From Bacteroidota bacterium (lineage in GTDB: Bacteria > Bacteroidota > Bacteroidia > Flavobacteriales > JADGDT01): a stretch of DNA of 32,870 bases. The stretch covers positions 1 to 32,870 of the forward strand of contig JBDLJM010000020.1 of the NCBI GenBank assembly GCA_039714315.1, written 5' to 3'. Positions 1 to 1,824 of the stretch are shown piece after piece. Under the pieces are notes generated by a model, which saw nothing but the letters and a program-made list of their open reading frames with translations, was not told where the DNA came from and did no database searches. Position 1 is the stretch's first letter; every line of letters starts with the position of its first letter. The translations under genes were made by a program, and so were the position numbers.

Positions 1-163
1 ATGAATGGTTCATTTGTAATAATTGTTTTTCAGTGGTCAAATGGTACATTCATGTATTTAGATACCACAAATTAACGAAATTGTACCCATGAATGGTTCA
101 TTTGTAAATAATTTGTTTTTCATTGGTCAAATGGTACATTCATGTATTTATGATACCACAAAT
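1..163. repeat. Two tandem copies of a ~75-bp palindrome-containing repeat
   Basis: Copy 1 (1-72) and copy 2 (89-163) are near-identical direct repeats separated by 16 bp; copy 2 carries a few single-base insertions. Each copy opens with ATGAATGGTTCATTTG and holds CAAATGGTACATTCAT about 37 bases later, so the ends form an imperfect inverted repeat; ATGAA/TTCAT is also a small hairpin by itself. Copy 1 begins exactly at the window edge, so more copies may lie to the left. No reading frame is apparent. It could be an intergenic repeat family or a remnant of one; its identity is unknown. Confidence 0.8.
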
Positions 164-362
164 ATATCTTCTTCCTATAATTTGTTGAAAACTTTCCTTT
201 TAAGCCGCGATGTTTAACACTTTATCATTTGATAATTATTAATTTTACACCCTCAAAAACAGCAGCGTATTTAAGCATAAATATAGGCAAAGTTAAAACT
301 AGTTTTAACTGCATTAAATATATAAAAAAATAATTTCCGCTTAGCGGGTTGAAAAGTACAAA
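164..362 (+). other. tdk leader region with palindromes
   Basis: This AT-rich non-coding stretch lies between the upstream repeats and tdk. It holds a perfect 20-bp palindrome at 291-310 and a small CCGC-TTA-GCGG hairpin at 337-347, only 15 bases before the tdk start codon. No convincing TTG/TAnnTTTG promoter pair or Shine-Dalgarno sequence was found. Weak Shine-Dalgarno signals are normal in Bacteroidota. Confidence 0.4.
291..310. promoter_or_regulatory. Perfect 20-bp palindrome upstream of tdk
   Basis: The sequence AGTTAAAACTAGTTTTAACT reads identically on both strands and ends 53 bases before the tdk start. It could be an operator for a dimeric regulator, or a cruciform or hairpin element. 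The function is unproven. Confidence 0.4.
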
Positions 363-1185: not shown

Positions 1186-1824
1186 ATGTCTGAAAAATAC
1201 CAAAATAAATACCGTGTAAAATCCCATAGAATGCCAGGTTGGGATTATTCGGATAATGGGTACTATTACATTACCATTGTTTCCCAAAACAGGGTGTCTA
1301 ATTTAGGTAAAATAGATAATAATGAAATGGTATTGTCTGATTTTGGTATAATTGTAAAGACCGAATTTTTAAAATCATTTGAAATACGAAACGAATTATT
1401 TTTAGGTGAATGTATTATCATGCCAAATCATATCCATGCCATAATAATTTTAAATAAATCGGAATTGGATGATTTGTTGGTGAATGATGATTTGTTGGTG
1501 AATGTAGAGACGCACGGCCGTGCGTCTCTACATAATCACAACCATAACCGTACAAACAACCCAATACCACCAATCAGAAAACCAAAATCGATATCGTCAT
1601 TTATTGCGGGTTTTAAATCGGCAGTGAACACAAAAATTGATAATTATATTGATGAAAACAATTTAGATATTCCGAAATACAACAGAAAAAATCATTTTTT
1701 TCAATCAAACTATCACGACCGTATTATCCGTGATGATGCAGAATATAACAGGATTAAGAATTATATCATTAATAATCCTAAAAATTGGAATAATGATAGA
1801 TTTAATAATTATTCCAATTTTTAG
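1186..1824 (+). CDS. REP-associated tyrosine transposase (RAYT, Y1/HUH family)
   Basis: This single-strand DNA transposase-like protein belongs to the Y1_Tnp (IS200-like) superfamily; such enzymes are thought to nick and join DNA at REP palindromes. Numbered from the ATG at 1186, the N-terminal KYRVKSHRMPGWDY is characteristic. The HUH metal-binding motif is MPNHIHAIIIL, and the catalytic Tyr lies in the C-terminal NYHDRIIRDDAEYNRI segment, followed by the family signature NNPKNW. An ATG at 1147 in frame would add 13 residues; 1186 is preferred because family members begin close to the KYR motif. Between the HUH and Tyr motifs sits an insertion made of an 18-bp tandem duplication and a perfect 32-bp palindrome, both read in frame. 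The gene lies on the same strand between tdk and murF-alr. It appears intact but may be inactive; no target repeat flanking it was proven. Confidence 0.92.
   Translation: MSEKYQNKYRVKSHRMPGWDYSDNGYYYITIVSQNRVSNLGKIDNNEMVLSDFGIIVKTEFLKSFEIRNELFLGECIIMPNHIHAIIILNKSELDDLLVNDDLLVNVETHGRASLHNHNHNRTNNPIPPIRKPKSISSFIAGFKSAVNTKIDNYIDENNLDIPKYNRKNHFFQSNYHDRIIRDDAEYNRIKNYIINNPKNWNNDRFNNYSNF
1468..1503 (+). repeat. 18-bp tandem duplication inside the RAYT gene
   Basis: The unit GATGATTTGTTGGTGAAT occurs twice without a gap (1468-1485 and 1486-1503) and is translated as DDLLVN twice. It immediately precedes the 32-bp palindrome and keeps the frame open. Confidence 0.95.
1502..1533. repeat. Perfect 32-bp GTAG-type palindrome within the RAYT reading frame
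   Basis: The left arm 1502-1517 reads ATGTAGAGACGCACGG, and 1518-1533 is its exact reverse complement with no spacer. It is GC-rich at its centre, unlike its AT-rich surroundings. Beginning with GTAG on both strands, it resembles the REP/BIME elements that RAYT enzymes act on; that link is from family knowledge. It encodes part of the insertion between the HUH and Tyr motifs. Confidence 0.93.

Follow-up and report, generated by a model that had tools for sequence, protein, structure and literature searches.

The RAYT gene (TnpA-REP, a Y1 HUH transposase) of the window, i.e., the whole 32,870-nucleotide stretch of DNA analyzed here, contains in frame a perfect 32-bp palindrome, which we consider to be rather probably the enzyme's own cognate REP, captured in a tolerant disordered loop and travelling with the gene. 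From enzymes of other groups we infer that this enzyme may recognize and cleave this element, and that such REPs may move. The features concerned are:

1186..1824, plus strand: RAYT / TnpA-REP (Y1 HUH transposase) gene, 212 aa, subclass 2.4-like (profiles, PDB 4er8, alignment)
1423..1437, plus strand: HUH motif PNHIH, residues 80-84 (PNH.H invariant in both RAYT alignments)
1438..1590, plus strand: hypervariable beta3-alphaC loop region (AlphaFold2 model; palindrome-bearing region of related RAYTs)
1468..1504, plus strand: 18-nt tandem duplication, GATGATTTGTTGGTGAAT twice (DDLLVN DDLLVN), an in-frame repeat abutting the left foot
1502..1533, no strand assigned: perfect 32-bp palindrome, its own reverse complement, with a hairpin on either strand
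1504..1531, no strand assigned: 28-bp double-foot REP unit GTAGAGACGCACGGCCGTGCGTCTCTAC, GTAG...CTAC (genome family and dispersed-site boundaries in genome G350)
1762..1764, plus strand: catalytic tyrosine Y193 in YIINNP (invariant in both RAYT alignments)

Judged from its sequence, the window gene is a RAYT, as the HUH motif, a single catalytic tyrosine with NP, and an IS200-like Y1 fold are all present. This identity, proposed in the initial annotation, is backed by the NCBIfam profile NF047646 (REP_Tyr_transpos), which matches the window protein with E = 8e-14 and 51.8 bits, i.e., below its curated cut-off of 80, and by PDB 4er8 (TnpA-REP with a REP hairpin), which was the top fold match (E = 1.4e-5) and was also matched by sequence. 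Among aligned relatives, NF047646 matches 36 of 36 and Pfam Y1_Tnp 24 of 36. Homology and alignment with other RAYTs place the likely start at 1186 (MSEKYQNKYR) rather than at the mechanical ORF start, 1147. The AlphaFold2 model of the protein has a mean pLDDT of 79.6, and pLDDT falls below 50 at residues 100-122 and 128-130, so that the residues encoded by the palindrome fall in a predicted disordered loop. Two other repeats were seen in this region of the contig: a 24-nt inverted repeat (96% complementary, 7-nt spacer) at 1774-1828 spans the gene end and stop codon, one arm encoding the residues just past the catalytic tyrosine (NNPKNWNND) and the other the last residues and the stop, and a direct repeat of roughly 90 nt (atgaatggttcatttgtaa...), read by eye, occupies window positions 1-165 at the contig start.

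The palindrome itself, ATGTAGAGACGCACGG|CCGTGCGTCTCTACAT, has 16-bp arms and a gap of 0, and is the only gapless perfect palindrome of such length in the whole window, where the chance expectation ranges from 8e-6 under uniform bases to 3e-5 under the window's own composition. GTAG forms the 5' foot on both strands, at 1504-1507 and as the complement of 1528-1531. Since the feet exclude the outermost two pairs (AT/AT), the REP unit corresponds to 1504-1531, which has the double-foot form GT[AG]G...C[TC]AC; the same 28-bp boundaries were seen in G350 at dispersed sites with unrelated flanks. The palindrome is read in frame as VETHGRASLH, covering residues 106-116, and its folding into a hairpin has a z-score of about -5 both as DNA and as RNA. 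Its GC content is 56% (64% for the 28-bp core) vs 29% in the remaining gene. The initial annotation had thus correctly described a gap-free 32-bp palindrome with GTAG at its foot on both strands, translated between the HUH motif and the catalytic tyrosine, and GC-rich in AT-rich surroundings. Comparison with Rfam returned nothing but sub-threshold chance matches. Loop tandem expansions resembling the duplication at 1468-1504 were also observed in loci L031, L034, L040, and L115.

In the host genome (G000; 3.4 Mb in 273 contigs), eight copies of GTAGAGACG-N10-CGTCTCTAC were found at ≤2 mismatches, against 0 for a reversed control pattern. The family is therefore a repeated, dispersed palindrome, i.e., a REP, while the exact stem sequence is unique: recurrence in the genome holds for variants and not for the exact palindrome, and the description of the element as REP-like stands, this being a REP with GTAG feet that has relatives at other genomic sites. 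Two of the eight copies fall within two RAYT genes of 0.6 kb (P = 4e-6): besides the window gene (RAYT-1), RAYT-2 (contig C192, 35% identity) has GTAGAGACGATGCACGCATCGTCTCTAC within the corresponding loop, likewise in frame, with a further family copy directly upstream of its gene. The centers of the remaining copies are like that of RAYT-2 (ATGCACGCAT and variants) or that of RAYT-1 (AACGGCCGTT), the latter center being found in two copies with partly shared flanks. A third RAYT (RAYT-3, contig C25) has a different palindrome in the same loop; at the start of its locus (L016, 1-115), the gene is preceded by a unit with TCCGGGCAGCCCTATAGCAGGTAG that is repeated in tandem at least four times. 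On contig C9 (L005, minus strand, about 1890-1139), a non-RAYT ORF, which resembles an anti-sigma factor, contains three in-frame degenerate REPs of the RAYT-2 type (VKTMRASSQ-like), which lie within longer repeated segments.

Next, we surveyed related RAYTs. Of 396 genomes of the phylum, 169 had relatives detected by a profile HMM built from seven RAYTs; 80 further loci came from named genomes that were also scanned. A loop palindrome, defined as perfect, with arms ≥10 and gap ≤6, and located in the HUH-to-alphaC loop, was present in 120 of the 185 RAYTs surveyed (66/112 and 54/73; 183 distinct), these being the hits nearest to a profile built partly from palindrome carriers. Overall, 130 palindromes were counted in 29 kb of loop, 5 in 82 kb of other gene parts, and 38 in 358 kb of far flanks, i.e., a loop density about 70 times that of the remaining gene and about 40 times that of the far flanks. 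Per kb, the two samples displayed 4.2 and 4.9 palindromes in the loop, 0.05-0.07 in other gene parts, 0.65-0.87 in the 300-nt flanks, and 0.06-0.13 further out. The best 12-bp quasi-palindrome was perfect in 45% of real loops, and perfect 12-bp arms were found in none of the codon-shuffled loops and none of the equal-length N-terminal parts. Both feet were detected in 76 of 129 surveyed loop palindromes, and the GTRG foot was read in two frames (60 and 16 cases) and never in the frame reading TAG. About one third of the sampled RAYTs had no perfect loop palindrome. In one locus (L097; G066 C2:2300420-2302056), three RAYT genes stand in tandem, two of which share an identical in-gene palindrome, GTAGGGGCAATTCATGAATTGCCCCTAC, with a further paralogue.

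The loop palindromes follow the RAYT lineage. Among 119 RAYTs with a loop palindrome, 60 distinct half-arms were found, and palindrome similarity was correlated with RAYT core identity, calculated with the loop left out (Mantel r = 0.425, reached in 0 of 2000 permutations). At the highest identities, simple inheritance could account for part of this tracking. For RAYTs with 60-70% core identity, fourfold sites were saturated (0.33), and palindrome arms were 0.63 identical. Divergent RAYTs within one genome had different palindromes, and genome G163 has two families of dispersed REPs, one corresponding to the in-gene palindrome of each of its two RAYTs. Because the in-gene palindrome follows the RAYT tree and is usually the sole exact copy in its genome, it probably marks each enzyme's own target.

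The same pattern is visible among orthologues. Flavobacterium RAYTs in the window RAYT's clade, at about 50% third-position identity, carry GTAGAACCGCACGGCCGTGCGGTTCTAC; compared with the window's own palindrome, the orthologue palindrome (GTAGAACC...GGTTCTAC) differs at four bases, which form two fully compensated pairs; third positions match in 8 of 9 cases. In two orthologues (L027, L139) the feet are lost and the 20-bp core is kept, and the palindrome of F. ajazii has a one-base break. F. salmonis (L141), which shares 96% core identity with F. cheongpyeongense, lacks a whole 114-nt segment. The element therefore sits in an inserted segment, as the initial annotation had suggested and as the alignment of orthologues indicates, with other palindromes at this position in the other host RAYTs; the notion of a simple single insertion was not upheld, as tandem and degenerate repeats make the loop a patchwork and F. 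salmonis differs by much more than one REP. For the latter reason, F. salmonis was rejected as a clean single-REP empty site. In a congener (G001) inspected as an empty site for the RAYT gene, the gene arrangement beside the MurF-Alr gene differs. Distant RAYTs do not share the window's residues with non-palindromic codons: their residues differ, and their palindromes differ yet are still perfect.

Taken together, these patterns most likely reflect a mechanism in which a RAYT would recognize a GTAG foot along with a specific hairpin in single-stranded DNA, copies of its cognate REP would be placed in the RAYT gene or close to it, insertions would be tolerated by the loop in both frames in which the TAG of the foot is not read, and the copy would be inherited with the gene. 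If the copy is inherited in this way, each RAYT lineage would hold a specimen of its own substrate, even with few or no other copies in the genome. Capture in a tolerant loop is suggested because REPs appear to land near the gene, the density in the flanks being raised as well.

Alternatively, the REP may be a selected cis element, kept as an autoregulatory site (a hairpin in its own mRNA or in transient single-stranded DNA) or as a substrate-enzyme master copy for horizontal transfer. Perfect pairing kept via compensated changes at saturated divergence would be expected from such an element, as would its presence even when the genome has no other copy. However, the palindrome is missing in some relatives (F. 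salmonis L141, G056, G002), its position and frame differ among clades, and arms can stay paired through template switching even in the absence of selection (PMC8794818); with F. salmonis and about a third of the sampled RAYTs having no perfect one, the loop palindrome is dispensable. A regulatory or master-copy role may be under selection, and we tentatively entertain, with more doubt than confidence, the broader proposal that the RAYT gene has in its REP a functional component under selection, a specimen of the enzyme's substrate carried in cis that autoregulates the gene or seeds new REP families after horizontal transfer. A selected cis element as the explanation of the patterns reported here seems to us unlikely.

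The copy number of these palindromes bears on a second alternative, namely that the loop is just a tolerant target passively hit in genomes rich in dispersed REPs. In F. limi, which belongs to the same order as the host and a different family, and in F. cheongpyeongense, both with genomes of 5 Mb, the palindrome sequence occurs once only, inside the RAYT gene. More broadly, 17 of 23 RAYTs audited with complete lists had no exact copy outside their own locus or a paralogous RAYT (G000 RAYT-1, G003, G443, G018, G066, G352, G406, G123, G203, G350, G077, G306, G182, G071, G070, G163-L066, and G108), so that spread from the in-gene palindrome is not visible in those genomes. Exact copies elsewhere were found for G000 RAYT-2, G308, G102, G163-L058, Planktothrix, and Planktothricoides; the dispersed copies of Planktothrix share flanks and are therefore part of a longer element. 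The pattern GTAGRGRC-N12/13-GYCYCTAC was matched in 9 of 80 genomes without a RAYT hit, a rate that cannot be fairly contrasted with that in 36 hit genomes, since the latter were chosen for palindromes. In-frame REPs are also present in other genes, including the host ORF on C9 (see also PMC3733652), and the loop is predicted to be disordered, both consistent with a passive hit. However, most of these genomes have few dispersed copies or none, and the loop is hit all the same, at the roughly 40-fold density noted above, and the palindrome tracks the RAYT lineage; the sole-copy cases (F. limi, F. cheongpyeongense, G018, G352, G306) strain this explanation further, and we consider it distinctly improbable. 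Accordingly, we rejected the in-gene copy as a mere reflection of a large dispersed population, although that description does fit Planktothrix and RAYT L058 of G163.

A third alternative is that hairpin template switching, a documented mechanism (PMC8794818, PMC7202029), keeps and perfects the arms without selection or RAYT action. In its favor, locus-specific palindromic extension beyond the feet was found in 20 of 76 in-gene copies and in 18 of 60 dispersed ones, where about 1 would be expected in each set; such extensions are compatible with template-switch copying and with insertion into the tips of hairpins that were already present. Mutational upkeep would, however, leave the GTAG feet, the concentration in the RAYT loop, and stem conservation within clades unexplained, and it has very little probability as the overall explanation. 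With frequencies so similar in the two sets (Fisher p = 0.70), extension beyond the feet was rejected as a mark of in-gene copies. Across individual genomes, most dispersed REPs of one genus (L276-L292; G108, G082) are extended by at least 3 locus-specific complementary bases past the feet, and extensions of this size are rare in G350, G077, and G163. Finally, a chance palindrome forced by the protein sequence is refuted by the window expectation of at most 3e-5, by the codon-shuffled loops, and by the persistence of palindromy in RAYTs with different residues.

An in-frame REP within a RAYT gene is a phenomenon described in 2018 (PMC6006769; BMC Genomics 2018 19:475), to which the window RAYT adds a case. 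According to that article, tnpA-REP genes of subclass 2.4 (Bertels group 4), mainly found in Cyanobacteria and Bacteroidetes, carry in-frame REPs between HuH and Y, these REPs having a double foot, and the inserted REPs were suggested to have little effect on activity because the region is peripheral. The window RAYT shares with this subclass, as characterized there, the double-foot GTRG...CYAC REP, the variable in-frame insertion in the hypervariable domain between beta3 and alphaC, and the motifs NH[IFV]H and YIxNNP (here NHIH and YIINNP). Unlike the class motif WQ given there, it has F before Q (FFQ), and FQ at this position is common to the window RAYT and its Flavobacterium clade, WQ being found in RAYT-2 and most relatives. 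To what we found stated in that article, our analysis adds two points: many genomes have no exact copy besides the in-gene one, and the palindrome tracks the RAYT lineage.

Two other known systems offer partial parallels. REPtrons and GTAG REPs (PMC3733652; E. coli TnpA-REP, PDB 4er8; PMC8266576) similarly associate a RAYT with GTAG-footed palindromes, but there the REPs flank the gene and have one foot, whereas the window has a symmetric double foot inside the gene. GTAG and CGTC REPs occur in frame in many genes, recalling Rickettsia elements (PMC3733652). Rickettsia palindromic elements (RPE) are likewise palindromic repeats in frame in coding genes, but hit many unrelated genes, whereas in the window the repeat lies in the gene of the transposase that presumably acts on it; in the host genome, one non-RAYT ORF with three in-frame degenerate copies was noted. 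Biochemically, cleavage of single-stranded REP at CT is documented for the TnpA-REP enzymes of E. coli, S. maltophilia, and Marinomonas, the last of which also cuts at CA, and both GTAG and the stem are important (PMC8266576). Recognition and cleavage of REPs by the associated RAYT have been demonstrated for enzymes of other groups only (PMC8266576).

The window RAYT thus provides a clean case of a mobile-element enzyme with its putative target DNA inside its own coding sequence. RAYT targets are known biochemically for few enzymes only (PMC8266576). If the in-gene REP is selected or functional, the specificity of each RAYT would be readable directly from its gene sequence, and if the loop palindrome is the cognate REP, as we favor, hundreds of enzyme-substrate pairs could be read from single genes, and a specificity code would become testable.
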